Positions 3,101-22,087 of a stretch of 22,190 bases of DNA are shown here, one piece after another. Numbering within the stretch: the first letter of the stretch is position 1; each line of letters opens with the position of its first letter. The DNA lies in the IMG/VR virus record IMGVR_UViG_3300008262_000338, positions 1 through 22,190 of that record; one strand, given 5' to 3'. Source of the stretch: a virus. A model generated the notes under the pieces. The model saw only the letters and a program-made list of their open reading frames with translations. It had not been told where the DNA came from and did no database searches. Made by a program: the position numbers and the translations under genes.

Positions 3101-6100
3101 ATATAATCTGGTGTAGTTCTAGTTACTGGAGAAGAATTGATTACATTCTGTAAGTTTTGATATAGGTAGTTTACAGATGATACAACATCATCACATTCCT
3201 GATCTGGCAGTAGAGGATCATCAATTAAGTTGTAATTTGAATAGCTTAGGGTATTTGTCCAGAAACCTGCTTTGTTTTCATTTACTTCTGTTATCTCTAC
3301 AATACCAGTACCGTTAGAAATTATTTCTTCTACGGTAGATATCATTTCGGAAATAGCAGATCCAACCTCAGCACAATATGGCGATTGAGTATCTACAGAT
3401 ACTGTATTATCCACAAATGGAACAATCGATGTATAGGTTCCTGCTCCAAGTTGATTTCTCATCGCCAAAACCATTTTCTCTTCTAGTTTTGACCATGCAT
3501 CTAAAGCAGCATCAGTTTCTTCCTGAGTTCTATTGATATATGTTAACTCTTCTCCGTAAGGATATCCAGCATTAGTGTAGTAAAGCTGAGCAAATTCGAC
3601 AACTTTTCTATTGCCACCAAATCTTAAATGGTAAGCAACGGCATCAATTAGATATCCCAGATCTCTTGCACACTTTGCCTTATCCCCAGATGGTAAGTTA
3701 TAATTGTCATAAATGTACTCACTAATCTCTTCTTGTAAATATTCTTTATTGTTAATAATGAGATTAGAAGCATCGTAAAATGTTCCACTATTAATTCCAC
3801 TCATGTAAAAAGTGGCAACATTATATACAGAATCTTCTAGGGCATCATTAGAAACCATAACTTCTGTGTCACTTTCTATAGATACAATTTTTGTATCCGA
3901 AGAGAAAGCACGTCCAGAACTTACATACATTCCAATTGCTAACCTATCGGTATCTTCGACAGTTATAATATTTGAACCTTGAGTATATGAAACATTACTC
4001 TCAATAATATCCCAATTTCTAATAGAAAGCGAAGATAGCTTAGTTGCATATTTGATAATGTCTAAAGTTTCTGATTTTGTTTTTATTGCAAATTTATATT
4101 TTTTGCTATTTTTGAAACTATTTGCATAATCTACAGTCTTAGAGTTTCCTCCAAATCTTATATCATGGTTGTAAGCATCGATAAAATATCCAACTGCTTC
4201 TTTGTAACCTTCCAGTCTGGTATTCCATGGGAGATCTGGATAAGTGTCTCTTCCATAACCAATAGATTCTTCTACAATAAATTGCTTATTTCTTTCTATT
4301 TGATTAGATGCATCCAACCATCTTCCATTTCTTTGGAAGATATTTCGTATCTTTCTTAGATATCTATTGTTATATTCGCTTTCTCTAAAGTAGAAACACT
4401 TACCGTAGAAAGTAACACCATTATATGTGGTAACATCACTAGAAGTATTTCCTGTCAGTTCTCCTCCAGGACCCAAAGGTGGTTGAGAGAAAATAATTTT
4501 ATCATCTTCTACCGTATATGCAACTCTTGGTTCCTGTAAAATTCCATCTAAAGTTACTACAAGACTTTCTTCGCTGATAGGAGTAAATGGAATTCCTTTG
4601 TCATTTAATACTTGGAATACTGTAGTTCCCTGTAGTCTTCCGTCGTTATCATAATAACCATCAAATGGTGCTGCCAAAGTGAAAGTAAATGCACGGGTTT
4701 CATTAAAATTAAATTCTGACGTAGCAGCAGATCCAACACCCTTTCTTATTCTGGTATTTTCAACTTTTTGAATTGTTTGAGTAACAGTTCTTCTTGTATT
4801 TTCTACAGTTATTTTATTGGTTTCTGGATCCCATAATTGAATTATAGAGAAAGTACTTGCAGCTTGATCTGGTCTTGCCTCTGGCATTTTGGTATCGCCA
4901 GAAGACTCAACATCAACTTGCCCGAATAATTTGAATCCAGCTGGATGAGTAGTTGATTTAATTAAGTCTCTCCATTCTTCGATGGAGGTTTTTGACTTAA
5001 CGACATATGAATAATCTTGATAGAAGAAACTATCTGTTAATCTTTGATTTGATACACCAAGTCTTCCTTTGTCGGATGTGTAATATCCAAGATTATCATA
5101 AAAACTGGTAATATTAGCATTAAATTCTGTAGTGTAAATCGCCTTTACAATTCCTTCTGTTCTCGATACCTCACCTTTAAGTGTCACACCCTGGCGAATT
5201 GTTCCAATAATATCTTGAAGTTTAAGGAGGTTTGATCCGAATCTCCACTCAGAAACTTTTGCTCTTAAAACTTCAACTCCATCAATAGTCTGAGTTACAG
5301 TTTCGCCGCTCTGAAAATCTCCCGTAAAATTCTTTAGGGATACTGTGTAGTTTGTTGTATATTTTGGAGATACTGTCTTATCCAAGTGGAAAGATCCACC
5401 ATTTCTAATAATCGATACACTTAGAGGAGAACCAATTGTATCACTTTCTGCATATGCTTCAACTTCACCTTCAATAATTTCAATTACGGGAGCATATGTA
5501 TATCCCTTTCCAGGATTTTCGACCGTGATTGAAAAGAGTTTTCCTTCTCTTGCTACTACCTTAAATGCTGCATCAACCCCATCACCATCTACAATAACGA
5601 TCTTTGGATTTACATAGTTTGATCCAAGTTCATTTATTTTTACTCCAGATATTTTATTGAGTTTTTCATCAAAGAGAACAGTAGCAGATGCTTTGAAAGA
5701 TGCGTTTGGAGCACATCCAACAATAACTGGAACTTTTTTGTAATTTAATCCAGAATTTATAATGTCAACTGAGTTAATTTGTCCAACAGCAAACTGACCA
5801 GTAGTTGTGTATGTGATACTACCAGATCCATCCCACAGAGGAATTGAATCTAAAGAATAAACAAATCTTGTAGGAGTTACATATGTAACTGTCTTTACTC
5901 CTTGTAATGGATCCTGAATAATTCTAAAATATGCACCATCAGAATCAACTACTCCATTTCTATCAAAATAATAGAAATTAGAGAAGTCCGTACCCACTCT
6001 ATTTTCATATGTATTAGTTGCGAGTCTAGCTCCAAAACCAAATTTAATGTCCGTATAAGAACCAGAATTTCCTGGTTGAATATCAGATTCTATTTTTTCT

Positions 6101-9100
6101 ACAGTTTCAATATTATAGTTTCTGCTTGGACTTAAATCAAAATAAACACCTGTGAGAGATGAGTGAGATGTGTCAAAAACGTATCTATAGAACTCTTGAA
6201 TATTAATATTTGGATTCGGAACAAAGTTAATATTGTCCTCAGAAAATTCAAATTTATATTCGAGATTTTCTATACTCTGAATTCTTACCTGTCTGATTGG
6301 TTGACTTACATCAAAGAATGTTGTGCTTAGTTCAATCTTTTCTGCAGTTAATTTTTGTATGGAATAATCATATACAATTACTGCATTCTGTGTTTCTGGG
6401 TCATATGATTGAACATACCCAGAACCATTATTTGTGGAAATTCTATAATTTGGTGTGAAATTATATCTTGCTTTGTATAGAGATACAGTTTGACCATCGT
6501 AGTGATCAACAATACTGCTATCTTCAATTCCTCTTAATACAGTAACTCTATTGCCGTCAATAGATGTAATCTCTACAATTTCATTTCCGATCTTCAGTAG
6601 ATTGCCATCCGAAAGACCAACAGTTGTTTTTAGTGGAACTACGGATGATTCTAAAGATACACCAACATGGTCAACGTAAATTGTCAATCTGGAAGAACTT
6701 AATGAACCACCAGATCTAGCTAGATCTTGATCATCTACTGTTAGATAATCTGCTTTTCTATACTTAGATCCACCAGATTGAATGACAACAGATGAAACCA
6801 CACCAGATGAAGATACCGTAATCGATGCTGTGGCACCAGTACCAGATCCACCAGTAAGAGGAACATTATTGTAAACGCCTGGAGTATAATCTGCGCCACC
6901 ATTTAAAATTTGAAATCTTCCGACGCCAGTATAATCAATCGTAGTGGATACTTTTGGTGTTTTAAAAGTTACAGATTGATATAATCTCTTTCTTACATAA
7001 TACTCTTTAGTTTTTGTAACATCATCTGGTGATATATTAATAGTTACCTTATCACCAATTCCCAATCCATGAGGAGAATCAGTTTCAATCAAAGCAACAT
7101 TTTGATTGACATCGAATGGCTCTAGATTATCACTTAATGATGTAAGTGTAATGATCTTAGATCCAGCTGTATTAAACAAATTACTGGATTGTAAGAAATA
7201 ATCATCATCAACGATCCAGGTTCCAGATAGAACTTTGATAGTAACAGTATTTTGCTTATCGGTGCTTTCTAGAACTTCGGCAGTAGCAATTGGTGGGTTT
7301 AATCCATCAGTAAGACTTAAAATTGCTCCCTGTGTATATGAACTGTCTTGATCGATCAGTAATATGAAAGTTTTAATATCTGCAGAAAATGTTCCTGTAT
7401 TATTAAATGTTCCAACAACATTTCTTAAAACAATTTCGTTATCATTCTGAACTGTTCCAACAATTTGACCAGAGGCACCTGAAGCTGGTTGTCTTAGAAT
7501 ATCATCAGAAAACAAATATGCACTTTGGATAGTTGTTAATTTTACTACCTTATCTTCCTTGCTTTCTAAGTAATTTACATTCTTTCCTTTAACAGAAGAA
7601 ACAATTGACTCTACATCAAATCCTTCCGTGCCTTTGTTGTCAAAATATACCTTCGAGTTGATGGAAAAATTATCCGAAGATCCATCAATTACGACACGAT
7701 CTATAGTACCAGATCTAACATCAGATACCTTAGCAATCAATCCATCGCCGTTTCCAGGCATTCCAGGAATATAATATCTTCTGGCGCTTTTTGGAATATC
7801 ATTTTGGTTGATATTAGAATTGTAATTACTATCTACTGGTAATGAATAAAAATTCTCTCCAATAAAATATGGGAAAACTGGATTTTGAGATGCATCGATC
7901 GTTAAGAAGTATGCATATACGCCATTTGGATAATCTGGTGTTACGCAGAATCTTCCATTATTTTTATCCAGAGATCCACTATTATGTCTGTAGATATAGT
8001 CATTAACAAAAGATCCAAGGGGATATTTTGAAGTAGATGGTCCCTTTGCTCTAGATCCATCTAAAGTATAACTAGAAGTCATTCTAGCTATTGATGATTG
8101 TGAGTCTAATGGATCTTCATAACCATATGGACCATAGATTGGATTGCCGTCATAGGCAAATCCAATAATAGGAGAGTGCTCTAAAACTTGCGATTCTACA
8201 TAACTGGAAGATAAATTATCATTCAGAATAACTCTTAACTCTTTTGGATTACCCAAATGTGCGTATCCATAGTCCAGAAGATTGTTATAATTTTGGAAAA
8301 GATAACCATTTTGATCATCTAGTTTATTCTTATACTTTGTAAATCTGTTGAAGTTCCATTCTTTTAAAACTGGAAATGCTGTTGCATCTCTACCAACTGG
8401 TACAACATCGACGATAACATTTTCTTGTGTGTAAAAATTGCCACCAGAAACTTTGATGAAATCTACTATTCTTCCATCTGTATCAACAACTGAAGTATAA
8501 TTTGCAAATCTTCCCTTGCCAGCATTATCTCTTATTTGAATTAATGGGGGAGATGAATAAAACTTGCCTGGATCTTCAATAATTAAGCTGGTTATTTCTC
8601 CACGAGTAACGACTGCTTCAATCTTTGCTCCATAACCAGATGTGACAACAATATCAGGTTCTCTGAGAAATACTTCAGATGTTTGAACTTCTATTCTATC
8701 AAGAACTTGACCAGACAAAAATGCTCTTGCTTTATTTGGTTTTCCATTAATTAAAACAAATGGAGGATTTACATATCCTCTACCGCGAGTATTAATCTTA
8801 ATTTCTTCTAGAGTTCCATATCTAATGCTCTCGGAATCTCTAAATCCATAAATTGGAACACCATTTACAAGAATGCCAACATCTCTTTTTGGAGTTTGGT
8901 AAACTTCTGTAGTTCTGATTGATTCTTTTCTAACAATCTTAAGAAGTTTTTGATCTTGTACATCTTGCGATACTGTAGATCCATCCAAAATTTTATATGA
9001 TGGATAGCTCGAACTAGCAATATAATAATACTGCTCATCCTCAAATATAGCAGAAACATCTGTTTTTACTTGATCTAATTGAGATTCTACGCCAACGTTT

Positions 9101-10440
9101 GTTGGAGCATAAACTGGGTCTCCTTGACTCAAAATCCAACGGAGATCGTTTGTTCCAGTCAGTACAATTTTTTGATTAGAAGTTTCAAATCCAGGATTAG
9201 AAATTTGTATTTTATCACCAGGAGATGAATACGGATTTAAAGTAGATGGAGTCAGGTTATATACAATACCAAATGTCAGTAGTTTAACTCCAGATCCTTC
9301 AATTTGAACTGGTCTGTAAACAGATGATCCTTGTGTATGATCTACTGAAATAGGTCCTCTATTTTTAATAATAAATTGAGTAGCATTTTTATCATCAAAA
9401 CTGATGGTCTCTTCGCCAATTAAAATCTCACCAACATCTTCCCACCCAACTGTGGAGAAAACATTTACTCTGTCTCCAGTAGATGCAGACGAAGATAGAT
9501 TACTTTCCAGTCTAGTTTTAGTAGAAATAGCAAATGTTCCATTTACAGTTTCTGGTGCCAAAACCAGATTCCAAATTCTTTCGTCATCCAGATTTCCATC
9601 TGGAAAAACATTATCGACGGTAGCAGAAGCATAATCGTACTCTTTGGTTGGAAGTTGAACGATTTTTGATCCAATAAGAGATCTTGGATCTCCAGATACA
9701 ACTTTAACCTTTAGAGCATAGATATTAATCCAATCCGAATCGGATGATTTGTAAGTAAAATCTCTTGGTTTGTAGGTAGATGGTTTATTGTTTACATCTT
9801 TTGCAACAATTGTGTTGAAGATGAACTTAATTGAACTATCTGTTCCCTTTGTTTTGTAGAACTTTTGAATATTCTTGATTAAAGTTCTCTTGTCTACATC
9901 ACCCTTTAGATACTTTTCTGGGAAAGATCCAAGATACTGAGTTTCGAAATTTCTTATAAAGGCATATAAGAAAAGATTACTGATGTTGAATACTTTGTGC
10001 CCAGCAACATGAGATGCTGCTGTAGTGCTTTGAAAATTTGATTCGGAATATAGATCACCTAGAGTTGTGTTTCCACTAACCCCCCTAGAACAATTTTGTA
10101 GAGTTGTGTTTGTTCTAGTAGCATAAAAAATAACTTCATCTTGAATCTTCACATATCCATTTTTTTCTGGAAATGAAGATGCATCATTCAATACAATTTC
10201 TGTATCAGTAGATGATATTCCAACAGCAAGTTGATCATACTGATTTAAGATATTTTTCTCGTAGTAATCAATATCTGCATACTTTTGGATATTGCTAATA
10301 ATATCCAAAGGACCACCCTGAACTTCCTGAGCTTCATAGTACTTCTGTACAAACTTACTAAAAAGTTCATACTCAGTAGAAATAAACTCTGGGAGTTGTG
10401 ACTCGATAAGAGTAGAAATTCTTTTGGTCTTAGCAGCCAT
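103..10440 (-). CDS. Giant baseplate/tail structural protein with YHYH domain (3445 aa)
   Basis: This very large virion protein is encoded directly after gp6 (four bases between stop and start), the place where T4 has gp7, so a baseplate-wedge or tail-fibre-base role is likely. Three things are visible. First, an N-terminal helical region (residues about 1-70 and 150-220) of the kind seen in cyanomyovirus structural proteins. Second, a YHYH domain at about residues 750-868, with GFAYDGNPIYGPYGY, NGRFCVTPDYPNGVYAYF and YPYFIGENFY. Third, several families of internal repeats: G-x-G-Y-x-x-x-P-x-V beta repeats (for example RGRGYVNPPFV, NPGKGYTYAPVI, GGSGYTEAPQV), 'FP..GYL.IG.EvI.Y' repeats at both ends and mid-protein, and two helical copies of GYxIDA...RFGGNxKxV near residues 2085 and 2267. 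T4 gp7 is about 1030 residues, so this is over three times longer and mostly repeat-built. No frameshift is seen. The ATG at 10440 has AAGAG upstream. Exact equivalence to gp7 is inference. Confidence 0.9.
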   Translation of the reverse strand: MAAKTKRISTLIESQLPEFISTEYELFSKFVQKYYEAQEVQGGPLDIISNIQKYADIDYYEKNILNQYDQLAVGISSTDTEIVLNDASSFPEKNGYVKIQDEVIFYATRTNTTLQNCSRGVSGNTTLGDLYSESNFQSTTAASHVAGHKVFNISNLFLYAFIRNFETQYLGSFPEKYLKGDVDKRTLIKNIQKFYKTKGTDSSIKFIFNTIVAKDVNNKPSTYKPRDFTYKSSDSDWINIYALKVKVVSGDPRSLIGSKIVQLPTKEYDYASATVDNVFPDGNLDDERIWNLVLAPETVNGTFAISTKTRLESNLSSSASTGDRVNVFSTVGWEDVGEILIGEETISFDDKNATQFIIKNRGPISVDHTQGSSVYRPVQIEGSGVKLLTFGIVYNLTPSTLNPYSSPGDKIQISNPGFETSNQKIVLTGTNDLRWILSQGDPVYAPTNVGVESQLDQVKTDVSAIFEDEQYYYIASSSYPSYKILDGSTVSQDVQDQKLLKIVRKESIRTTEVYQTPKRDVGILVNGVPIYGFRDSESIRYGTLEEIKINTRGRGYVNPPFVLINGKPNKARAFLSGQVLDRIEVQTSEVFLREPDIVVTSGYGAKIEAVVTRGEITSLIIEDPGKFYSSPPLIQIRDNAGKGRFANYTSVVDTDGRIVDFIKVSGGNFYTQENVIVDVVPVGRDATAFPVLKEWNFNRFTKYKNKLDDQNGYLFQNYNNLLDYGYAHLGNPKELRVILNDNLSSSYVESQVLEHSPIIGFAYDGNPIYGPYGYEDPLDSQSSIARMTSSYTLDGSRAKGPSTSKYPLGSFVNDYIYRHNSGSLDKNNGRFCVTPDYPNGVYAYFLTIDASQNPVFPYFIGENFYSLPVDSNYNSNINQNDIPKSARRYYIPGMPGNGDGLIAKVSDVRSGTIDRVVIDGSSDNFSINSKVYFDNKGTEGFDVESIVSSVKGKNVNYLESKEDKVVKLTTIQSAYLFSDDILRQPASGASGQIVGTVQNDNEIVLRNVVGTFNNTGTFSADIKTFILLIDQDSSYTQGAILSLTDGLNPPIATAEVLESTDKQNTVTIKVLSGTWIVDDDYFLQSSNLFNTAGSKIITLTSLSDNLEPFDVNQNVALIETDSPHGLGIGDKVTINISPDDVTKTKEYYVRKRLYQSVTFKTPKVSTTIDYTGVGRFQILNGGADYTPGVYNNVPLTGGSGTGATASITVSSSGVVSSVVIQSGGSKYRKADYLTVDDQDLARSGGSLSSSRLTIYVDHVGVSLESSVVPLKTTVGLSDGNLLKIGNEIVEITSIDGNRVTVLRGIEDSSIVDHYDGQTVSLYKARYNFTPNYRISTNNGSGYVQSYDPETQNAVIVYDYSIQKLTAEKIELSTTFFDVSQPIRQVRIQSIENLEYKFEFSEDNINFVPNPNINIQEFYRYVFDTSHSSLTGVYFDLSPSRNYNIETVEKIESDIQPGNSGSYTDIKFGFGARLATNTYENRVGTDFSNFYYFDRNGVVDSDGAYFRIIQDPLQGVKTVTYVTPTRFVYSLDSIPLWDGSGSITYTTTGQFAVGQINSVDIINSGLNYKKVPVIVGCAPNASFKASATVLFDEKLNKISGVKINELGSNYVNPKIVIVDGDGVDAAFKVVAREGKLFSITVENPGKGYTYAPVIEIIEGEVEAYAESDTIGSPLSVSIIRNGGSFHLDKTVSPKYTTNYTVSLKNFTGDFQSGETVTQTIDGVEVLRAKVSEWRFGSNLLKLQDIIGTIRQGVTLKGEVSRTEGIVKAIYTTEFNANITSFYDNLGYYTSDKGRLGVSNQRLTDSFFYQDYSYVVKSKTSIEEWRDLIKSTTHPAGFKLFGQVDVESSGDTKMPEARPDQAASTFSIIQLWDPETNKITVENTRRTVTQTIQKVENTRIRKGVGSAATSEFNFNETRAFTFTLAAPFDGYYDNDGRLQGTTVFQVLNDKGIPFTPISEESLVVTLDGILQEPRVAYTVEDDKIIFSQPPLGPGGELTGNTSSDVTTYNGVTFYGKCFYFRESEYNNRYLRKIRNIFQRNGRWLDASNQIERNKQFIVEESIGYGRDTYPDLPWNTRLEGYKEAVGYFIDAYNHDIRFGGNSKTVDYANSFKNSKKYKFAIKTKSETLDIIKYATKLSSLSIRNWDIIESNVSYTQGSNIITVEDTDRLAIGMYVSSGRAFSSDTKIVSIESDTEVMVSNDALEDSVYNVATFYMSGINSGTFYDASNLIINNKEYLQEEISEYIYDNYNLPSGDKAKCARDLGYLIDAVAYHLRFGGNRKVVEFAQLYYTNAGYPYGEELTYINRTQEETDAALDAWSKLEEKMVLAMRNQLGAGTYTSIVPFVDNTVSVDTQSPYCAEVGSAISEMISTVEEIISNGTGIVEITEVNENKAGFWTNTLSYSNYNLIDDPLLPDQECDDVVSSVNYLYQNLQNVINSSPVTRTTPDYIDGQTKVFDLYWENGDPAITEEDEDLFLTINAVLQKPKYNEFYPGPDAYYIDRTVIPNQIVFDVAPIWDQDFGAKNIGEPTAVEKVVGVGIGNYKRLTIDYDLVDGIRSGPFLILDLEDLTVENIEEPDYMFVFVDGVLQRENYSYTVSGPNIYFTVPLVEQNKVDIRYLYGRDIGQILRIYDFDVDGFYAKSKVTVEVTSGLEDLMRFNWTGGDFRGAIQAFQFNPDGTFNMIGNATGFETDENILTFNCVGNKSEILPGVDMHFALSGKYTTINTSISITDGFIEYEKDEDDRTILEDNNSWKGTFFKWWYKNPFVNISNGDLIKVEGQDKFRRIKEISRKATTKEERPQHQVSNSFYSTVEIERYNGISRGEGLSVVAIIENGVVVGLEWNQRNYNPITQPTAYQYFTPPVLHFIPKDGNGGGARANVLVSKGQVISVDLLDGGSGYTEAPQVIVARRYDVIDDRDIGVSVINAGLNLEINQFSMVSSSTISVLGSQVPQINTFTSIIFDSPVDSDRVITSIVQLVRENNNLELVEREFIGTTRPELDEIQVLDVFPQTSEYLSIISGRVEDVISNSIVTTGRQITTTISHEIDNTALSNINYYGIGAYLDVNLDILDNIVYIPDTSKFKTNGYLLIGNEVVRYYRKLSDRFLNVQRGQNNTTAQFWPAGTFLRQLPDPISSVFGGVSIIESESQTVSMTVGAADTVVSEKQKKIQILTNASITTVSKDIVSVVQNLLNIDSISNVNTKINHKIEVPFDITPSVTLTTSISEVLSQIQIIESDITIRKESLELLLIPPGSGAVDGYQESVYITDPVTTRLNGQVDLNNDYGVVKRNLSVIYVSNRVFGNDIEYVGTYERTSVGPTIENFKFLPNDDGSANVSGLSLQDFSFYYPSFTFRDLEERGKSSYTLSGDYFNLANCSIQDPVAISSSSGNISSTISVQNTTYFPSSGYLFTSGGTVIQYTGKTSTSFTGCTLYRGSDSINVGDEIIPYSIN

Positions 10441-15085: not shown

Positions 15086-15262
15086 CTACGCGGTCGCTGC
15101 CTCTAGGCGCTTAGCGAGCAATCGGGCGGTGTGCTGCTTGGGGCGATAGGGCAGTAGGATGGTCTGCCCGCTGCTGTGCCGCCAGAGCTGATGCTTCGAT
15201 CCGTTGCGCTCCTTGATCCACCCCGCTGCTGTGGCGAGGCGCTGCAGTTGCTTGTCTGTCAT
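15086..15262 (-). CDS. hicA: HicA-like toxin-fold protein (58 aa)
   Basis: The protein has the small double-stranded RNA-binding-like fold pattern of HicA mRNA interferases: helix MTDKQLQRLATAAGW, then the family hallmark GSKH (residues 21-24; E. coli HicA has GSNH with the catalytic His), then strands HQLWRHSSGQTILLP and a C-terminal helix TARLLAKRLEAA. Length fits the family (about 60). I chose ATG 15262 over the upstream TTG at 15274. It begins 9 bases after the stop of the 58-residue gene at 15271 and lacks its own promoter cassette, so the two form a pair. The partner does not look like HicB, so it is either a solitary HicA-like phage protein or part of an unusual pair. Family assignment is by motif only. 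Confidence 0.65.
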   Translation of the reverse strand: MTDKQLQRLATAAGWIKERNGSKHQLWRHSSGQTILLPYRPKQHTARLLAKRLEAATA

Positions 15263-15270
15263 GGTGGCGA

Positions 15271-15447
15271 TCAACCGAAGGTGGGGAGGGCAGCGACTGC
15301 CTCATCATGGAAGTGTTCAGCGTAGACCCCTGCGATCATGGCGGCGAGGTGCCCTTGCCCTGTGCTGGGGTTGCTGCTGACCCATACCTGCTGGCGGGTG
15401 GCGAGGTCAGAGGCGAGGCGGAAGCAGGTGGGGTTGCGCTTGGTCAT
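15271..15447 (-). CDS. Hypothetical protein upstream of HicA-like gene (58 aa)
   Basis: ATG 15447 was chosen because it lies 22 bases after a cassette -10 (TAGACT); an open frame further upstream would start before the promoter. The protein begins MTKRNPTCFRLASDLATRQQ, continues VWVSSNPSTGQGHLAAMIAG and ends DEAVAALPTFG. No membrane segment, no recognised domain. It shares a transcript with the HicA-like gene. That makes it a candidate antitoxin by position only; it lacks the partial RNase-H pattern of HicB. Confidence 0.65.
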   Translation of the reverse strand: MTKRNPTCFRLASDLATRQQVWVSSNPSTGQGHLAAMIAGVYAEHFHDEAVAALPTFG

Positions 15448-15479
15448 GGTGTCTGTCGGTTGCTTGGTTAGTCTACAGG
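15448..15479 (-). promoter_or_regulatory. Cassette promoter/leader of the 58-aa gene and HicA-like gene
   Basis: The minus strand has CCTGTAGACTAACC, -10 TAGACT at 15475-15470, 22 bases before the ATG. This copy has a shortened leader without the CTCAGTTCAAA word but keeps AAGCAACCGACA, shared with the copy at 16214-16249. Confidence 0.55.
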
Positions 15480-15488
15480 CGGGGTCGC

Positions 15489-15662
15489 TCAGTCGCGGTC
15501 GCTGATGTTCCAGGTGCCCGACTGGCACTCAGGGGCAGGGAAGGGGAAGGGGCGACCCTCAGCGAATGCCTTACGGTTGGCGGCAGACCGTGCCTGCATC
15601 TCGTTATAGCGGGTGGTGTAGTCTGCCATCAGGGCGGCGAGGTCGATCTTGGGGTTGGTCAT
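15489..15662 (-). CDS. Hypothetical cassette protein (57 aa)
   Basis: ATG 15662 was chosen because it lies 22 bases after the cassette -10. The protein begins MTNPKIDLAALMADYTTRYN, has a helical EMQARSAANRKAFAEG and a Pro/Phe segment RPFPFPAPECQSGTWN. It is polar, with no membrane segment. Codons favour G or C at third positions, unlike the structural genes to the left. Unknown function; it sits in the array of single-gene units. Confidence 0.65.
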   Translation of the reverse strand: MTNPKIDLAALMADYTTRYNEMQARSAANRKAFAEGRPFPFPAPECQSGTWNISDRD

Positions 15663-15694
15663 TTGCTTTGTTTGAACTGAGATCAGTCTACAGG
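15663..15694 (-). promoter_or_regulatory. Cassette promoter/leader of the 57-aa gene
   Basis: -10 TAGACT at 15690-15685, followed by GATCTCAGTTCAAACAAAGC and the ATG. This is the common array element; no Shine-Dalgarno site is visible. Confidence 0.6.
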
Positions 15695-15696
15695 GT

Positions 15697-15739
15697 CGGT
15701 CGGGCAGATCGGGGGTGGAAGGGGACAGAGCCCCGACCG
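15697..15739 (-). other. Intergenic stem-loop between cassettes
   Basis: Arms CGGTCGGG and CCCGACCG (8 bp, perfect) enclose a second possible stem GGGG/CCCC. It starts at the stop of the 63-residue gene and ends just before the next cassette promoter. Probable terminator or mRNA-end protector without a T run. Confidence 0.45.
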
Positions 15740-15931
15740 TCACATCACATAGAGACCGTGGGCGGCGAAGTGCTGGGGATAGTTCTGGCGCCAGTTGGCG
15801 AGGCGCTGCAGCAGCAGGGCATCATCGGCACGATGGTGCAGTTCGATCAGCCAGGCGGGGGTGCTGCCGTGCTCTGCCTTGAACATGGCGAGCAGGGAAG
15901 CGATGGCACGGGTGCGAGCGGTGGCGGTCAT
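15740..15931 (-). CDS. Hypothetical cassette protein (63 aa)
   Basis: ATG 15931 lies 25 bases after a cassette -10. The protein starts MTATARTRAIASLLAMFKAE, continues HGSTPAWLIELHHRADDALL and ends NYPQHFAAHGLYVM. It is Ala/Leu-rich and helical, with several His, no signal peptide. GC-rich codons. No family recognised. Confidence 0.7.
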   Translation of the reverse strand: MTATARTRAIASLLAMFKAEHGSTPAWLIELHHRADDALLLQRLANWRQNYPQHFAAHGLYVM

Positions 15932-15967
15932 GAGTCGTTTCGTTTGAACTGAGGTTAGTCTACAGGG
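15932..15967 (-). promoter_or_regulatory. Cassette promoter/leader of the 63-aa gene
   Basis: -10 TAGACT at 15962-15957, then AACCTCAGTTCAAACGAAAC and ATG 25 bases from the -10. This is the fullest copy of the array element. Confidence 0.65.
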
Positions 15968-15968
15968 T

Positions 15969-15980
15969 GGGGCGAACCCC
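15969..15980 (-). other. GGGG-TTCG-CCCC stem-loop at gene end
   Basis: The minus strand reads GGGGTTCGCCCC: a 4-bp GC stem closed by a TTCG tetraloop, touching the TAG stop of the 77-residue gene and immediately followed by the next cassette promoter. Confidence 0.45.
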
Positions 15981-16213
15981 TAGCGAGCGTATGTGGTCAC
16001 CTCGCTGGCTGGCACACGGGTGACGGTGAGGCGCTTCCACCCCTCGATACGGTAGTAACGCAGCTCCTCGATAACGGCGTTCACCACGTTATCATGCTGG
16101 CGGGACATGCCCTTAGCGGTGGTTGCCTTGCGACGCTTGCGGTATTCAACAGCGGTCGTACCGTCTGCCCGATCGAGCTCGACACGGTAGAAGGCGTAGG
16201 CGTTGCTGGTCAT
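15980..16213 (-). CDS. Hypothetical cassette protein (77 aa)
   Basis: ATG 16213 lies 25 bases after the cassette -10 TAGAAT; a longer frame to 16303 would run back through the promoter and the end of the neighbouring gene. The protein starts MTSNAYAFYRVELDRADGTT, has a basic stretch YRKRRKATTAKGMSRQ and a helix VVNAVIEELRYYRIEGWKRL, then a beta end TVTRVPASEVTTYAR. Basic overall, possibly nucleic-acid binding; this is inference. No known family recognised. Confidence 0.68.
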   Translation of the reverse strand: MTSNAYAFYRVELDRADGTTAVEYRKRRKATTAKGMSRQHDNVVNAVIEELRYYRIEGWKRLTVTRVPASEVTTYAR

Positions 16214-16249
16214 GGTCGGTTGCTTGTGAACTGAGAGAATTCTACAGGC
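16214..16249 (-). promoter_or_regulatory. Cassette promoter/leader of the 77-aa gene
   Basis: -10 TAGAAT at 16244-16239, then TCTCTCAGTTCACAAGCAAC and the ATG. TAGAAT is closer to the TATAAT consensus than the usual TAGACT, which supports reading the repeat as a promoter. Confidence 0.62.
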
Positions 16250-16264
16250 AGCAGGGGACGCTGC
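16248..16264 (-). other. Intergenic stem-loop GCAGC/GCTGC
   Basis: Perfect 5-bp GC stem with a 7-base loop between the stop of the 67-residue gene and the next cassette promoter. Confidence 0.4.
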
Positions 16265-16283
16265 TAGGGTGCTGGGGGACGGT

Positions 16284-16487
16284 TCAGCGATTGTCCAACC
16301 CACGGGCGAAGCCCTGCAGGAAACCCGTCACGATGGCGACGCCCAGATCAGCCCAGAACTGAGGATCACGGGCAGCATCTGCCGCGGCCTTTGCCCAATC
16401 CTCTGGGGTGGCGGTGGCGATTGCTTCCCTCTCTGCAGGGGTCAGATCAGCGATGAACTGTTCGAGCGTGTCAGCGTTGCGGTTCAT
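16284..16487 (-). CDS. Hypothetical cassette protein, helical (67 aa)
   Basis: ATG 16487 lies 26 bases after a cassette -10. The protein begins MNRNADTLEQFIADLTPAER, then EAIATATPEDWAKAAADAAR, and ends with a hydrophobic or amphipathic helix FWADLGVAIVTGFLQGFARG (about residues 44-63) that could touch a membrane. Acidic first half. GC-rich codons. No recognised family. Confidence 0.7.
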   Translation of the reverse strand: MNRNADTLEQFIADLTPAEREAIATATPEDWAKAAADAARDPQFWADLGVAIVTGFLQGFARGLDNR

Positions 16488-16523
16488 GGTCTCGGGTCGT
16501 TTGAACTGAGGTTAGTCTACAGG
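16488..16523 (-). promoter_or_regulatory. Cassette promoter/leader of the 67-aa gene
   Basis: -10 TAGACT at 16519-16514, then AACCTCAGTTCAAACGACCC and ATG. Only a few bases separate it from the stop of the preceding 54-residue gene. Confidence 0.62.
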
Positions 16524-16525
16524 GG

Positions 16526-16690
16526 TCAGGGCATCTCACAGGCGCCAGGGAGGACACTGTTGTAGCTGGCACAACGCTCTGCCTGAATGGCGTTAATGGT
16601 GCTCACCTGCTCTGCTGCAGACTTGACGCACAGGGCGCTGCCGTAGGCGATGCAACCCCAGAACCCGATTGCCAGAACTGCTTTGATCAT
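16526..16690 (-). CDS. Small protein with N-terminal membrane or signal segment (54 aa)
   Basis: ATG 16690 begins MIKAVLAIGFWGCIAYGSAL, a short positively charged start followed by a hydrophobic stretch of about 18 residues, so it is a membrane anchor or signal peptide. The rest (CVKSAAEQVSTINAIQAERC, then ASYNSVLPGACEMP) is polar with several Cys. The mature part could lie outside the inner membrane and form disulfides; this is inference. Its ATG overlaps the TGA of the preceding 44-codon frame (ATGA), and a TATAAT with a cassette-like CAGTTCAAAG leader lies 26 bases upstream. Confidence 0.65.
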   Translation of the reverse strand: MIKAVLAIGFWGCIAYGSALCVKSAAEQVSTINAIQAERCASYNSVLPGACEMP

Positions 16691-16821
16691 TTGCGCTTGC
16701 GCTTTGAACTGTTGCCATTATAGGCATGGGTCAGGGCACCTAGGATCGCTTGCCATGCCACTTGATCAACCGTCCCCTGCATCTTGACGACAGGCAGGTG
16801 AGGCATGGTGAAATGAGACAT
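16687..16821 (-). CDS. Possible small basic protein (44 aa) before the membrane peptide
   Basis: The frame starts MSHFTMPHLPVVKMQGTVDQ, continues VAWQAILGALTHAYNGNSSK and ends RKRK. In its favour: the ATGA overlap with the next gene and protein-like content. Against: the ATG lies two bases after the T run of the ArdA terminator with no Shine-Dalgarno site, and the TATAAT of the downstream cassette lies inside it. It could be expressed by read-through from ArdA, or be chance. Confidence 0.4.
   Translation of the reverse strand: MSHFTMPHLPVVKMQGTVDQVAWQAILGALTHAYNGNSSKRKRK
16717..16722 (-). promoter_or_regulatory. Promoter -10 TATAAT before the membrane peptide
   Basis: TATAAT 26 bases before ATG 16690, followed by GGCAACAGTTCAAAGC, which matches the cassette leader. 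This copy has the exact -10 consensus where the others have TAGACT, anchoring the interpretation of the repeat. Confidence 0.55.
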
Positions 16822-16822
16822 T

Positions 16823-16848
16823 AAAAAAGGGGCAGCATCTCTGCCCCT
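16823..16848 (-). terminator. Rho-independent terminator of the ArdA-like gene
   Basis: On the minus strand GGGGCAG, loop AGATG, CTGCCCC, then six T. A classic intrinsic terminator 32 bases after the ArdA-like stop codon, the clearest in the window. Confidence 0.85.
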
Positions 16849-16879
16849 GTTAGTGTTAGTTAGAATTGATCAGTTGTGA

Positions 16880-17311
16880 TCAGTTATCGCTGAAGATGTA
16901 CACGTTACGATAACCTGCCTCGCAAGCGGTGAAGTCATAACGCAGGTTCTGATCGTAGGTTGCTTCCCAGTCAACAACGACAAAGGAAGGAACATCACCA
17001 TACACATCAGAGGTGAACTCCTCAGCGAAATCTGCGGTGCTTTCGTAGCAACCACGGTAACGCTCATCACAATCCTCGATATAGCTAACGTCGCCCATTT
17101 CCTCGATCAGAGCATCAACTGCCTCGTAACCGATCGCTTCACCACAGCGAACATACTCTTCATAATAGGCAACGAAATCGCTCTCGTTATGGGCATCGAT
17201 GAACTCCAGCATGTCATCGAGAGCATAGTTCTCATCGAGCAACTCATCGATCTTGCTCACGGTATCAGCAGCGAGCACTTCCTTGTAGTTAGCGGTGAGG
17301 GTCACAGACAT
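16880..17311 (-). CDS. ardA: ArdA-like anti-restriction protein (143 aa)
   Basis: ArdA proteins mimic about 40 bp of bent B-form DNA and block type I restriction enzymes. The C-terminal half fits the family: RYRGCYESTADFAEEFTSDV (the family has an EYxGEYDSxxDFAEE-like segment), then VDWEATYDQNLRYDF and a final NVYIFSDN where ArdA proteins end in a GHVF-like strand. About a quarter of residues are Asp or Glu with few Lys or Arg, as expected for a DNA mimic. At 143 residues it is somewhat shorter than the usual 165-170; the N-terminal domain seems reduced. It has its own promoter (TTGACT, 17 bases, TAATCT) and terminator, so it is an early single-gene unit. Assignment is by motif and composition. 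Confidence 0.72.
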   Translation of the reverse strand: MSVTLTANYKEVLAADTVSKIDELLDENYALDDMLEFIDAHNESDFVAYYEEYVRCGEAIGYEAVDALIEEMGDVSYIEDCDERYRGCYESTADFAEEFTSDVYGDVPSFVVVDWEATYDQNLRYDFTACEAGYRNVYIFSDN

Positions 17312-17364
17312 GGTTCGTTTGTTTGAACTGAAGGTAGATTAGACGAGATCGGGGGGAGAGTCAA
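17312..17364 (-). promoter_or_regulatory. Promoter of the ArdA-like gene (TTGACT-17-TAATCT) with cassette leader
   Basis: -35 TTGACT at 17364-17359, a 17-base spacer, -10 TAATCT at 17341-17336, then ACCTTCAGTTCAAACAAACG and ATG. This is the cassette copy with the best -35, consistent with strong immediate-early expression by host RNA polymerase. Confidence 0.7.
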
Positions 17365-17382
17365 GGGGTGGGGGACACCCCT
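17364..17382 (-). other. Intergenic stem-loop before the ArdA promoter
   Basis: AGGGGTG, a five-base loop and CACCCCT form a perfect 7-bp stem 7 bases after the stop of the 53-residue gene, abutting the -35 of the ArdA-like gene: the stem-loop plus promoter layout in its clearest form. Confidence 0.5.
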
Positions 17383-17389
17383 CAGACTG

Positions 17390-17551
17390 TCACATGCCGT
17401 TGAGCATGTCGTAGATGGCATCGAAGTATTCTGCCTCAGTCTCAAAGGTGCGACCGTGGATAGTACGGGGGTACTCTGCCTTAGGGGCAGGCGCCTTGCT
17501 GGGCTCCTTGCCTTGGGAGAGGATCTGCTGGGCGTAGGGGTTGCTGATCAT
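17390..17551 (-). CDS. Hypothetical cassette protein (53 aa)
   Basis: ATG 17551 lies 21 bases after cassette -10 TAGAAT. The protein starts MISNPYAQQILSQGKEPSKA, then a Pro/Lys linker, then PRTIHGRTFETEAEYFDAIY and ends DMLNGM. The C-terminal part, with an H-G-R-x-F-x-T-E-A-E-Y pattern and a helix, looks like a small ordered domain. Unknown function. The stop sits in ATGTGACAGTCT, a 3-prime sequence also found at the end of the 57-residue gene at 19138. Confidence 0.68.
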   Translation of the reverse strand: MISNPYAQQILSQGKEPSKAPAPKAEYPRTIHGRTFETEAEYFDAIYDMLNGM

Positions 17552-17583
17552 GGTGTCGTTTGAACTGAGGTCATTCTACAGGG
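17552..17583 (-). promoter_or_regulatory. Cassette promoter/leader of the 53-aa gene
   Basis: -10 TAGAAT at 17578-17573, then GACCTCAGTTCAAACGACAC and the ATG. Shortest spacing of the set (21 bases). Confidence 0.63.
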
Positions 17584-17590
17584 TGCTGGT

Positions 17591-17608
17591 GGGGGATTGG
17601 CGTCCCCC
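17591..17608 (-). other. Intergenic stem-loop GGGGGA/TCCCCC
   Basis: Perfect 6-bp stem with a six-base loop, 13 bases after the stop of the 65-residue gene and just before the next cassette promoter. Confidence 0.48.
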
Positions 17609-17621
17609 TTGTGCCACCGCC

Positions 17622-17819
17622 TCAACCGTCCATCAAGGCCGCGGCCACCACATCAGCAGCACCGCCCAGATCATCTCTCACAATCAGGCGAAGCATCTCA
17701 GCCCCTGCAGGGGTGGAATGCATCTCTAGGATGTTCTCTGCTGTGGTGGGCATGTCATCAAAGGCAGCAGCAACTAGCATCTCACCGATGATGATCAGGT
17801 GTGCGTTGTTGGCAGTCAT
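17622..17819 (-). CDS. Hypothetical cassette protein (65 aa)
   Basis: ATG 17819 lies 24 bases after a cassette -10. The protein starts MTANNAHLIIIGEMLVAAAF, continues DDMPTTAENILEMHSTPAGA and ends DVVAAALMDG. Acidic and helical; the hydrophobic start (residues 7-20) is too short and interrupted for a sure membrane segment. GC-rich codons. Ends in GACGGTTGA, the same stop context as the neighbour at 17893. Confidence 0.67.
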   Translation of the reverse strand: MTANNAHLIIIGEMLVAAAFDDMPTTAENILEMHSTPAGAEMLRLIVRDDLGGAADVVAAALMDG

Positions 17820-17853
17820 GGGTCGTTTCGTGTTGACTTGATCAGTCTACAGG
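17820..17853 (-). promoter_or_regulatory. Cassette promoter/leader of the 65-aa gene, variant B
   Basis: -10 TAGACT at 17849-17844, then GATCAAGTCAACACGAAACG and ATG. The leader ATCAAGTCAAC differs from the CTCAGTTCAAAC type and matches the copy before the 109-residue gene at 19060-19089. Confidence 0.6.
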
Positions 17854-17877
17854 CAGGGTTGGGCGGATCGTGGGTCA

Positions 17878-17898
17878 GGTTGTGCCACTTGCTCAACC
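17878..17898 (-). other. Stem-loop at stop codon, GGTTG/CAACC
   Basis: The stem starts in the stop context GACGGTTGA of the 63-residue acidic gene; the loop holds AAGTGGCA, a word repeated after other genes here (19370, 20050 areas). Confidence 0.4.
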
Positions 17899-18084
17899 GT
17901 CTGACTCAGCAGGATCGCCTAGCAGTTCAGGATAGTATTCGTTACACTCAGCAGTCAGTTCTTCATCCGAATACTTATCATAACCCTCATCGAGATAATC
18001 ATAACAAAGCTGCGTCATCGTCTTGAGATCCATGTCATCGAGCATCTGCTGAATGAGGGCGTCTTGCAGTTCAGAACGGTTCAT
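17893..18084 (-). CDS. Small acidic phage protein (63 aa)
   Basis: ATG 18084 starts MNRSELQDALIQQMLDDMDL, then KTMTQLCYDYLDEGYDKYSD and EELTAECNEYYPELLGD. Short acidic proteins with 'D-M-D-x-K-T', 'Y-D-x-L' and 'S-D-E-E-L ... E-Y-x-P-x-L-L' are common in cyanophages and other phages as uncharacterised small proteins; I recognise the pattern but no function. It follows the membrane protein gene by 37 bases and probably shares its transcript. Codons are less GC-biased than in the genes to the left. Confidence 0.75.
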   Translation of the reverse strand: MNRSELQDALIQQMLDDMDLKTMTQLCYDYLDEGYDKYSDEELTAECNEYYPELLGDPAESDG

Positions 18085-18121
18085 GAGTTTGTGTTAATTA
18101 GTGGTGAACAGTTAGTGTTGA

Positions 18122-18349
18122 TCAGGCGAGTTCTGCATCCTCCAAAGTATAATAAACTCGCTCGCTGAGTTTGTGACACATAAGGGTGAATTTGGCCGCG
18201 GCAGACATCAGAAACTCCTTGCCACCATCAGCATACCAAACTCGTGCTGCCTTGTAAGTATAGCTAACTACTGCCACGATAACTGCAACAATCGTGGCGA
18301 TGTTGAACACCAAAGTGTTAATGAAGCTCTTGGCAAAAGTGTTGTTCAT
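18122..18349 (-). CDS. Small membrane protein (75 aa)
   Basis: ATG 18349 (MNNTFAKSFINT) was chosen over an upstream in-frame start because a promoter (TTGACT, 17 bases, TACATT) lies 25 bases before it. Residues about 10-31 (INTLVFNIATIVAVIVAVVS) form one clear membrane helix; the polar C-terminal part (KAARVWYADGGKEFLMSAAA, then a helix ending YTLEDAELA) is probably cytoplasmic. A single-pass early membrane peptide could act on host membrane functions; this is inference. No family name known to me. Confidence 0.75.
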   Translation of the reverse strand: MNNTFAKSFINTLVFNIATIVAVIVAVVSYTYKAARVWYADGGKEFLMSAAAKFTLMCHKLSERVYYTLEDAELA

Positions 18350-18374
18350 CGGGTGAAATTGATTGAACAAATGT

Positions 18375-18403
18375 AATGTAACCGATCTGGGAGGCAAAGT
18401 CAA
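18375..18403 (-). promoter_or_regulatory. Sigma-70-like promoter (TTGACT-17-TACATT)
   Basis: -35 TTGACT at 18403-18398, a 17-base spacer and -10 TACATT at 18380-18375, with the ATG 25 bases further. Same -35 and spacing as the ArdA-like gene promoter. Confidence 0.65.
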
Positions 18404-18412
18404 CCACTAGTG

Positions 18413-18430
18413 GACAGTTCCCAGACTGTC
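18413..18430 (-). other. Stem-loop GACAGT/ACTGTC (copy 1)
   Basis: Perfect 6-bp inverted repeat with a 6-base loop; the same arms recur at 19122-19139 with a different loop. It lies between the 44-residue gene and the promoter of the membrane protein gene. Confidence 0.5.
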
Positions 18431-18431
18431 A

Positions 18432-18457
18432 CTGTGCCAGTCACCAAACTGGCACAG
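18432..18457 (-). terminator. 10-bp hairpin after the 44-aa gene
   Basis: Perfect arms CTGTGCCAGT and ACTGGCACAG with a 6-base loop, 16 bases after the stop at 18474. There is no T run, so it may protect or process the mRNA end rather than terminate. Confidence 0.5.
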
Positions 18458-18632: not shown

Positions 18633-18655
18633 ATTATAACCTATTAAGGTTATAA
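18633..18655 (-). promoter_or_regulatory. -10 box within a 9-bp inverted repeat (possible operator)
   Basis: TTATAACCT, ATTA, AGGTTATAA is a perfect inverted repeat at 18634-18655. On the minus strand its end forms TATAAT (18638-18633), 24 bases before the ATG at 18608. A dimeric repressor bound here would cover the -10. No good -35 is visible. Confidence 0.5.
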
Positions 18656-18669
18656 TTTATAAAAACTTT

Positions 18670-18720
18670 AAAATATTAGAAATCTCAATATTTTTAATTT
18701 ATTGAGATTTCTAATATTTT
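18670..18720 (-). terminator. 21-bp perfect AT-rich hairpin after the 109-aa gene
   Basis: Arms at 18670-18690 and 18700-18720 are perfectly complementary over 21 bp with a 9-base loop; each arm holds AATCTCAA/TTGAGATT. It starts 10 bases after the stop of the 109-residue gene. An AT-rich stem followed by TTTT fits a terminator, but its length is unusual and the GAGATTT word links it to the repeat block at 19863-19952. Confidence 0.6.
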
Positions 18721-19059: not shown

Positions 19060-19089
19060 GGGTCGTTTGCGGTTGACTTGATTAGTATG
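19060..19089 (-). promoter_or_regulatory. Cassette promoter/leader variant B of the 109-aa gene
   Basis: -10 CATACT at 19089-19084, then AATCAAGTCAACCGCAAACG and ATG. Nearly identical to the leader at 17820-17853 although the genes are unrelated and 1.2 kb apart. Confidence 0.55.
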
Positions 19090-19121
19090 GCACCCCCAGG
19101 GGCACCGTGGAGGGTTTGGTG

Positions 19122-19139
19122 GACAGTTCAGAGACTGTC
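19122..19139 (-). other. Stem-loop GACAGT/ACTGTC (copy 2) at a stop codon
   Basis: Perfect 6-bp inverted repeat with a 6-base loop, overlapping the TGA of the 57-residue gene. Same arms as at 18413-18430. Confidence 0.5.
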
Positions 19140-19311
19140 ACACATCATAGCAGATATGACCTTTCTTCTGCTCACTATACCAAATCTGATCTGCAATATT
19201 ATCTAATTGAGTTGCAACACCAAGGCAGAAATCATAACATTCTGCCATGCTATTGTTCAGATAAAGATGATCATCATGACGCTCAACAATCTTGGTGTTG
19301 AAGTAATTCAT
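19138..19311 (-). CDS. Hypothetical small protein (57 aa)
   Basis: ATG 19311 starts MNYFNTKIVERHDDHLYLNN, then SMAECYDFCLGVATQLDNIA and ends DQIWYSEQKKGHICYDV. Soluble alpha-helical protein with three Cys; no signal peptide. AT-balanced codons. The stop lies inside a GACAGT stem-loop. Family not recognised. Confidence 0.7.
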   Translation of the reverse strand: MNYFNTKIVERHDDHLYLNNSMAECYDFCLGVATQLDNIADQIWYSEQKKGHICYDV

Positions 19312-19380
19312 CGGTTGAATTCCTGACGACTTGTTAACAATACCCCATCGGGTGACCCTGTGGAGGTTTACTGTGCCACT

Positions 19381-19539
19381 TCAGAAAGTGTCATAGTACT
19401 CATCCGTTTCTTTCTTGAACTTGGTTACTTTCTTTTTAGTCTGCCTTCGAATGTTCTTCACTTCATAACCGAAGTCTTCGAAGTCATCCTCGAATTCAGT
19501 AAACTTATCGTTGCTGCTGTAGCGATAGTTCTTAGCCAT
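19381..19539 (-). CDS. Hypothetical small charged protein (52 aa)
   Basis: ATG 19539 starts MAKNYRYSSNDKFTEFEDDF, then EDFGYEVKNIRRQTKKKVTK and FKKETDEYYDTF. An acidic middle is followed by a strongly basic stretch (RRQTKKKVTKFKK), the layout of small nucleic-acid-associated phage proteins. It follows the KTSC-like gene by 34 bases and likely shares its transcript. The stop is followed by AAGTGGCACAG, a word also after genes at 17893 and near 20050. Confidence 0.7.
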   Translation of the reverse strand: MAKNYRYSSNDKFTEFEDDFEDFGYEVKNIRRQTKKKVTKFKKETDEYYDTF

Positions 19540-19862: not shown

Positions 19863-19952
19863 AAAAACTCAAAAATTTAAGTTTCTGAGATTTCTCATTT
19901 TCTCAAAAAACCAAAAAAGTGAGATTTTTGACTTTTTGAGATTTTGAGTTTT
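19863..19952. repeat. AT-rich block with GAGATTT repeats and nested inverted repeats
   Basis: AAAACTCAAAA (19864-19874) pairs with TTTTGAGTTTT (19942-19952), and TCTCAAAAA (19901-19909) pairs with TTTTTGAGA (19933-19941); GAGATTT occurs three times on the plus strand. It would form a large stem, or act as an easily melted, iterated binding region beside the DnaA-like boxes. Confidence 0.6.
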
Positions 19953-19978
19953 CCACAGTTTCCACAGGTTGTGGAAAA
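19949..19978. promoter_or_regulatory. Cluster of DnaA-box-like 9-mers (TTTTCCACA)
   Basis: Two exact TTTTCCACA copies in opposite directions (19949-19957 plus; 19970-19978 minus) and one near copy GTTTCCACA (19958-19966 plus). A further exact copy on the minus strand lies at 20257-20265. TTTTCCACA is the DnaA box reported for Synechococcus oriC. The outer copies also form a 9-bp hairpin, so an RNA-level role is possible. Confidence 0.55.
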
Positions 19979-20015: not shown

Positions 20016-20021
20016 ATTATA
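20016..20021 (-). promoter_or_regulatory. Possible -10 (TATAAT) before the KTSC-like gene
   Basis: TATAAT on the minus strand, 193 bases before ATG 19822; no clear -35. If active, the leader would contain the whole repeat block. Confidence 0.3.
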
Positions 20022-20195
20022 GGGCACCTGGGAGGGTCTCTGAGGGGTTCTGTGCCACTTGGCGTACTGTCACATGTTTCCTTGACTTTCGATAGGTTGC
20101 GTGCTAAGCCAACAACGACTCAGAACCTTTCCAATCCTTCCCTCTCATATGTCATCAATACAACACATTACATATATTTTTTAATACATTTCTTA

Positions 20196-21869: not shown

Positions 21870-22087
21870 CGCAGTTTACCTTTGATTTTGGTGAGACAAT
21901 CATTAAAACCTTCTACAGTACACTCCACATATACATTCTGTGATCCTGCAGCAGATTGTGCTTTAGGTAACCATGCTTCAATTTGATCTACCAGGCTTTC
22001 AATATTCTGTCCTGATGGGTTGTTATTGATAAAGATTTCATCCCACCAATCAGCAATAATATCATACAAAGTTTCTGTTTCAGTCAT
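21866..22087 (-). CDS. Conserved small phage protein (73 aa)
   Basis: ATG 22087 (MTETETLYDIIADWWDEIFI) was chosen over an upstream TTG because it overlaps the preceding stop as ATGA. Then NNNPSGQNIESLVDQIEAWL, PKAQSAAGSQNVYVECTVEG and FNDCLTKIKGKLR. The 'V-D-x-I-E-x-W-L-P ... G-S-Q-N-V-Y-V-E ... V-E-G-F-N-D' pattern I associate with a small protein in cyanomyovirus early regions. Function unknown. Confidence 0.78.
   Translation of the reverse strand: MTETETLYDIIADWWDEIFINNNPSGQNIESLVDQIEAWLPKAQSAAGSQNVYVECTVEGFNDCLTKIKGKLR

Follow-up and report, generated by a model that had tools for sequence, protein, structure and literature searches.

The window, that is, the whole stretch of DNA analysed here, is a 22,190-base viral contig in IMG/VR (record IMGVR_UViG_3300008262_000338), and its nearest isolates are Synechococcus T4-like phages of the Kyanoviridae. 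It carries an open reading frame (ORF) of 3445 amino acids (aa) at 103-10440; upstream of it on the minus strand lie gp6- and gp25-like baseplate genes, followed by a series of very small genes. Ten small genes lie in a GC-rich island (59-64% GC at 15.0-16.8 kb and 49-55% up to 18.0 kb, with 31-44% in the other parts), each behind a -10 box and a short leader. Here we describe the control module shared by the genes of this array. Read 5' to 3', the proposed unit consists of a palindrome, a C-rich spacer of 29-31 bp, a -10 box TAnnnT without a -35 box, a leader and the ATG. Judging from sequence comparison, we consider it likely (probability roughly 0.7) that each small array gene is an autonomous transcription unit under a putative dimeric protein bound to the palindrome, and that the genes can be swapped singly with their junctions in the module.

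Array genes and promoter-leader units

The cassette genes of the array are the following.

15271-15447 (-), 58 aa, no assigned function, followed by an overlapping HicA-like ORF (15086-15274)
15489-15662 (-), F3, 57 aa, no assigned function; its downstream neighbour differs among phages
15740-15931 (-), F6, 63 aa; missing between F8 and F3 in the related loci L023 and L030
15980-16213 (-), F8, 77 aa, phrog_5495 (E=2e-29), no assigned function
16284-16487 (-), 67 aa, no assigned function
16526-16690 (-), 54 aa, hydrophobic N-terminus, no assigned function
16880-17311 (-), F2, 143 aa, ArdA-like anti-restriction protein, phrog_36653 (E=1e-44)
17390-17551 (-), F4, 53 aa, phrog_649 (E=1e-12), no assigned function
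17622-17819 (-), F7, 65 aa, no assigned function

The ArdA-like gene, which has relatives in over 100 IMG/VR loci, matches Pfam ArdA at E=3.5e-4, under the curated cut-off. Array cargo otherwise includes DUF7249 (215 phage records matched), and most of it has no assigned function; among 33 family representatives, 3 were recognised by Pfam and 1 was named by PHROGs. The HicA-toxin-like ORF at the downstream end of the array has a TTG start and overlaps the 3' end of the 15271-15447 gene, with which it may possibly form a toxin/antitoxin-type pair.

Units were detected with a 23-nt matrix built from related phages. The core, TAnnnT-N4-TCAGTTCAAACRA or variants, is about 23 nt long and not 35 bases as given in the original prediction; aligned units read T-A-n-A-C/A-T, four more bases and then TCAGTTCAAACRA. 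Near-identical copies had been placed before nine starts in the array and before the 19059 gene. Six of these are strong in the window (matrix scores 28.8-36.9; starts 15662, 15931, 16213, 16487, 17311 and 17551), the one before 16690 is weak, starts 17819 and 19059 have the variant ATCAAGTCAAC (AAGTCAAC leaders), and the 15447 start retains the -10 alone (TGTAGACTAACC). The predicted distance of 21-26 nt between -10 and ATG was confirmed.

15448-15475 (-), -10 box (TAGACT at 15475) and degenerate leader of the 15447 gene
15663-15690 (-), promoter-leader unit TAGACTGATCTCAGTTCAAACAAAGCAA of the 15662 gene, score 36.9
15932-15962 (-), promoter-leader unit of the 15931 gene, score 35.7
16214-16244 (-), promoter-leader unit of the 16213 gene, score 28.8
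16488-16519 (-), promoter-leader unit of the 16487 gene, score 35.7
16691-16722 (-), weaker promoter-leader unit TATAATGGCAACAGTTCAAAG of the 16690 gene, score 8.9
17312-17341 (-), promoter-leader unit of the ArdA-like gene (start 17311), score 29.0
17552-17578 (-), promoter-leader unit of the 17551 gene, score 36.7
17820-17849 (-), -10 and variant leader AAGTCAACACGAAACGACCC of the 17819 gene
19060-19089 (-), -10 (CATACT at 19089) and variant leader AAGTCAACCGCAAACGACCC of the 19059 gene (Kyano_Gp96)

The information content of the aligned units includes the -10 box, contains no conserved -35 and rises again where transcription is predicted to begin, at the A of AGTTCAA lying 7 nt past the -10; mRNAs initiated there would read AGUUCAAACRA at the 5' end. 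The ArdA-like gene is the sole array gene with a -35 box (TTGACT, 17 nt before its -10), and a consensus promoter scan of the window predicted no array promoters. The leaders, 15-23 nt long and A/C-rich, are untranslated and not translated as first described. Shine-Dalgarno-like 4-mers occur in 1 of 56 leaders versus 53 of 232 other ORFs, the leaders are less structured (less paired) than random local leaders in 78 of 100 cases, and no credible Rfam match to a structured RNA was obtained. Alternative leaders (AGTCAAC, CATACCAAACGA) follow the same kind of -10, and the leader is thus one of several interchangeable types.

A comparison set of 94 non-redundant related loci (820 kb) contains 256 units in gene orientation and 3 in reverse, against 8 in the reversed-sequence control, so that the repeat exceeds chance. 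These units precede 61 gene families, and 241 of the units are followed at the appropriate spacing by an ORF that starts with ATG. The exact unit is present in 27 IMG/VR stretches, and an exact search with the less common leader variant gave no match. Metagenomic assemblies can misjoin repeats; the isolate S-PM2 has the same architecture, with 11 near-identical units within 3.1 kb (21542-24583) and scattered matches scoring about 17 or less elsewhere in its genome. Occurrence of the unit in cyanobacterial genomes, among which the original prediction had suggested a search of Synechococcus, was not borne out: genome contigs totalling 257 Gb yielded 14 exact matches to the unit (the palindrome was not part of this search), nearly all isolated singles and none cyanobacterial. 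A host origin of the unit was rejected as far as tested on the basis of these scattered matches.

A palindrome held at constant spacing from the -10 box

A GC stem-loop starting at the stop codon had been described between most units. Of 49 spacers, about 55% are more stably folded than shuffled versions (z<-1); in several no hairpin forms at all, and a U-run occurs in almost none. In the search for these stem-loops, k-mers near gene ends exposed TGACAGT...GTGGCACA at fixed length. It was modelled as a palindrome of 24 bp, TGTGMCAST-N6-ASTGKCACA, with 709 matches versus 10 in reversed sequence, counts that are partly circular in that the matrix was trained on the studied loci. A palindrome lies 24-120 nt upstream of 171 of 239 units; for 168 of these, the distance from its start to the -10 is 53, 54 or 55 nt, while its offset to the gene end has a standard deviation of 26. 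Another 500 palindromes have no TCAGTTCA unit, and 399 -10-like hexamers stand at offsets 53-55 from them, with a handful at most other offsets. In the window a palindrome lies ahead of every array unit and also of the genes starting at 18349, 19059 and 19311; the sites are listed with their spacing to the -10 (CDS, coding sequence).

15506-15529 (-), palindrome (operator-like site) of the 15447 gene, score 14.3, spacing 54; inside CDS 15489-15662
15721-15744 (-), palindrome of the 15662 gene, spacing 54
15993-16016 (-), palindrome of the 15931 gene, spacing 54; inside CDS 15980-16213
16275-16298 (-), palindrome of the 16213 gene, spacing 54
16550-16573 (-), palindrome of the 16487 gene, spacing 54; inside CDS 16526-16690
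16754-16777 (-), palindrome of the 16690 gene, spacing 55
17371-17394 (-), palindrome of the ArdA-like gene, spacing 53
17610-17633 (-), palindrome of the 17551 gene, spacing 55
17881-17904 (-), palindrome of the 17819 gene, spacing 55
18410-18433 (-), palindrome of the 18349 gene, -10 TACATT at 18380, spacing 53
19119-19142 (-), palindrome of the 19059 gene (Kyano_Gp96), -10 CATACT at 19089, spacing 53
19372-19395 (-), palindrome of the 19311 gene, -10 TATTGT at 19342, spacing 53
20051-20074 (-), strong palindrome, then TATAAT at 20021, spacing 53

The 18349 gene is preceded by an unusual double site, in which another palindrome (18433-18456) directly adjoins the one at 18410-18433.

The layout had been likened to the promoter early stem-loops (PeSLs) of T4-type phages (Arbiol 2010 and Comeau 2014, as cited in PMC4503421). 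As with PeSLs, a composite intergenic element with a promoter recurs among the small variable genes of a hyperplastic region, the genes to its two sides differ, and the sequence evidence is of flanking genes exchanged with junctions in the element. If the cassettes were of this type, the inverted repeats would be transcribed terminator stem-loops at gene ends, each followed by an ordinary early promoter; the GC hairpins in about half of the spacers and a true, canonical U-tract terminator (16848-16828) behind the ArdA-like gene agree with this, and the palindrome could fold in read-through RNA. However, the upstream half of the array element is a palindrome whose spacing is fixed to the promoter and not to the stop codon, and which often lies in coding sequence: among 168 palindromes, 53 are wholly inside the upstream CDS, 78 run across its end and 37 follow it. 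Moreover, no pairing covariation exists between the palindrome halves, whose degenerate letters are chosen independently, and this fits two half-sites of a DNA-binding dimer and not an RNA stem. The near absence of U-runs and of a -35 of sigma-70 or T4 early type, and a repeat that runs through the untranslated leader, likewise differ from PeSLs. We regard PeSL-type cassettes as quite improbable here. Since the tests for a paired terminator hairpin and a sigma-70 -35 failed, the array is not filed as PeSL; single-gene cassettes that share a promoter-leader unit, with the homology break at the unit, are retained from that comparison, and the stem-loop half and the -35 are not. Stop-codon stem-loops were also rejected as the unifying feature.

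In the mechanism that we favour, a putative DNA-binding protein would sit as a dimer on the palindrome, which is centred near -54, recruit host RNA polymerase and replace the -35, presumably early in infection, and the protein is probably an activator. The palindrome could instead be the operator of a repressor or timing switch that shuts the genes off, with host polymerase using the -10-only promoters unaided. Promoters with a -10 alone are usual in picocyanobacteria, and a site at -66 to -43 could repress through looping, but the palindrome does not overlap the promoter, and the missing -35 together with a spacing held within 3 bp across about 30 bp of unconserved DNA better fits contact between an activator and polymerase. 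We therefore judge a repressor unlikely.

Isolate genomes and known promoter systems

Few marine viruses are as abundant as the T4-like cyanophages. According to a 2010 review (PMC2984593), MotA, AsiA, Alt and ModA/B are missing from cyanomyoviruses, which leaves it unclear how these phages transcribe their early and middle genes. We counted palindrome/-10 pairs at offsets 53-55 in isolate genomes against the number expected from other offsets. Observed and expected numbers were 26 and 3.1 in S-PM2, 19 and 2.5 in S-RIM32, 12 and 1.8 in Syn9, 22 and 5.4 in P-SSM4, 10 and 1.9 in S-B43, and 10 and 2.9 in S-RSM4; throughout these genomes the palindrome and a -10 without -35 occur together with other leaders. 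T4 and the podovirus P-SSP7 lack the palindrome even when up to 3 mismatches are allowed. Syn9 has 6 copies and P-SSM4 has 10. The six isolates have 33 small ORFs in common, and at S-PM2 position 120703 (L241) a strong palindrome/-10 pair stands directly before a 79-aa gene that is kept in all six.

We tentatively propose, at slightly less than even odds, that the palindrome is the site of a transcription factor, phage-encoded or host-hijacked, that activates -35-less early/middle promoters genome-wide throughout the Kyanoviridae, including Prochlorococcus phages, as a counterpart of MotA/AsiA, and that accessory-gene arrays are its most concentrated targets. The data point to an on-switch shared across the whole virus family and so far unrecognised; an earlier description is possible. 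With a constant spacing between palindrome and -10 in six of six cyanomyovirus isolates and no palindrome in T4, the site can serve as bait for the regulator and the pairs as a testable promoter map, and the model gives a testable answer to how early and middle genes would be controlled in cyanomyoviruses without MotA, AsiA or Alt.

The array promoters resemble T4 middle promoters (MotA box plus -10, under MotA/AsiA) in being -10 promoters with an upstream protein site, here putative, in the role of the -35. They differ in having a 24-bp palindrome near -54 and not a MotA box near -30, in viruses that lack motA and asiA (PMC2984593). No MotA-like box is conserved between palindrome and -10, where C-richness is the only shared property. 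A putative middle promoter has been reported in P-SSM4 and Syn9 and is absent from S-PM2 (PMC2984593); the palindrome is abundant in S-PM2 and is therefore unlikely to be that element. Like class I activator promoters of the CRP type, the array promoters combine an upstream palindrome, here a putative dimer site, with a -35 that is weak or missing. The CRP half-sites, however, are TGTGA-N6-TCACA, whereas here TGTGM-N14-KCACA puts 14 bp between the outer half-sites, and the palindrome is centred near -54 and not at -61.5 or -41.5. Integron cassettes are promoterless and depend on attC and the IntI integrase, whereas each array cassette has its own promoter, the feature on which this comparison was judged.

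One unit of the S-PM2 array has been listed before in other terms. The promoter of S-PM2d250 (CCTATACT GAT CTCAGTTC) was given as a putative Pho box by Rihtman et al. 2024 (Table 2; PMC10976474), and the gene was reported as up-regulated under phosphate depletion. The published Pho box, CCTATACTGATCTCAGTTC, has the letters of the S-PM2 unit at 22069 (L235): what was published as a host PhoB site corresponds to the -10 TATACT plus the leader CTCAGTTC, one of the 11 promoter-leaders in the 3.1-kb array. For the S-PM2 ORFanage, Puxty et al. 2015 reported an absence of dense PeSLs (PMC4503421); the array of 11 units (L006, 20.4-24.9 kb) is located a few kilobases downstream of the part that these authors treated.

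Exchange of single genes

Among 92 adjacent pairs of unit genes, 71 are distinct. Flanking genes differ between relatives while the unit is kept, as had been predicted, and the same genes in the same order were looked for in related phages and not found. The genes F8 and F3, for instance, are adjacent in L023 and separated by F6 in the window, with identities of 91.8% for F8 and 95.4% for F3. Locus L066 has two ArdA-like cassettes and L017 three F12 cassettes, two of them in direct tandem; the tandem paralogues (L017, 5200-6300) have near-identical spacers and promoters, with the third copy elsewhere, as expected from unequal exchange.

The position of homology breaks was examined in 17 pairs (8 families) of orthologous cassettes whose CDS agree at 90% or more of positions but whose upstream DNA is unrelated. 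Identity fell from 0.95 over the first 30 CDS nt to 0.60 across the final 6 nt of the leader and 0.52 ahead of the -10; where upstream DNA was shared it was 0.92-0.98 throughout. This profile places the breaks within the module, at places that vary between the DNA ahead of the -10 and the bases right before the ATG. With the same short control module on every gene, gain, loss, duplication or exchange could affect one gene at a time, and that gene would be expressed without delay. The description as swappable single-gene cassettes holds at the level of sequence, and the module would explain the one-at-a-time exchange of dozens of unrelated small genes, the ArdA-like gene included, with expression kept. 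A causal role of the unit in exchange, by homologous recombination at the module, is what we infer from the breaks.

A recombinase that recognises the palindrome and moves the cassettes, in a role comparable to attC, would account for one imperfect inverted repeat at each junction of cassettes that shuffle. Yet isolated promoters throughout entire phage genomes show the same palindrome-promoter spacing, and the homology breaks just described do not fall at the palindrome, which makes this a very remote prospect.

Several points weigh against a module-based exchange under palindrome control. Besides the partial circularity of the palindrome counts, to which the spacing and isolate tests are less exposed, the array palindromes score lower (13-21) than those at other places (up to 27). 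Furthermore, in the same region the probability of the same next gene is 0.26 for non-unit genes versus 0.16 for unit genes; neighbours of non-unit genes are thus also poorly conserved, so that the unit need not drive shuffling, and the region is generally plastic. With so moderate a difference from the control, neighbour turnover was rejected as proof of unit-driven shuffling. Homogenisation of units within a phage is a weak effect (mean edit distance 8.04 versus 8.56 in permutations, 16/1000).

The units may then be ordinary selected promoters, with turnover by illegitimate recombination in which they take no part, an account of the exchange step only and compatible with a palindrome-controlled promoter. 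The variable non-unit neighbours, a shared core of merely about 23 bp and the weak array palindromes agree with it, but orthologous cassettes break homology at or within the unit where upstream genes differ, and adjacent cassettes of one phage have identical leaders. We hold this to be rather unlikely, and prefer exchange of single genes at the module.

Upstream of the array, long AT-rich inverted repeats at 18640-18720 and 19870-19960 (AATATTAGAAATCTCAATA... and a run of TTTTTGAGATTTTGAG-like repeats) flank the Gp96-like gene and the 19574-19822 gene.

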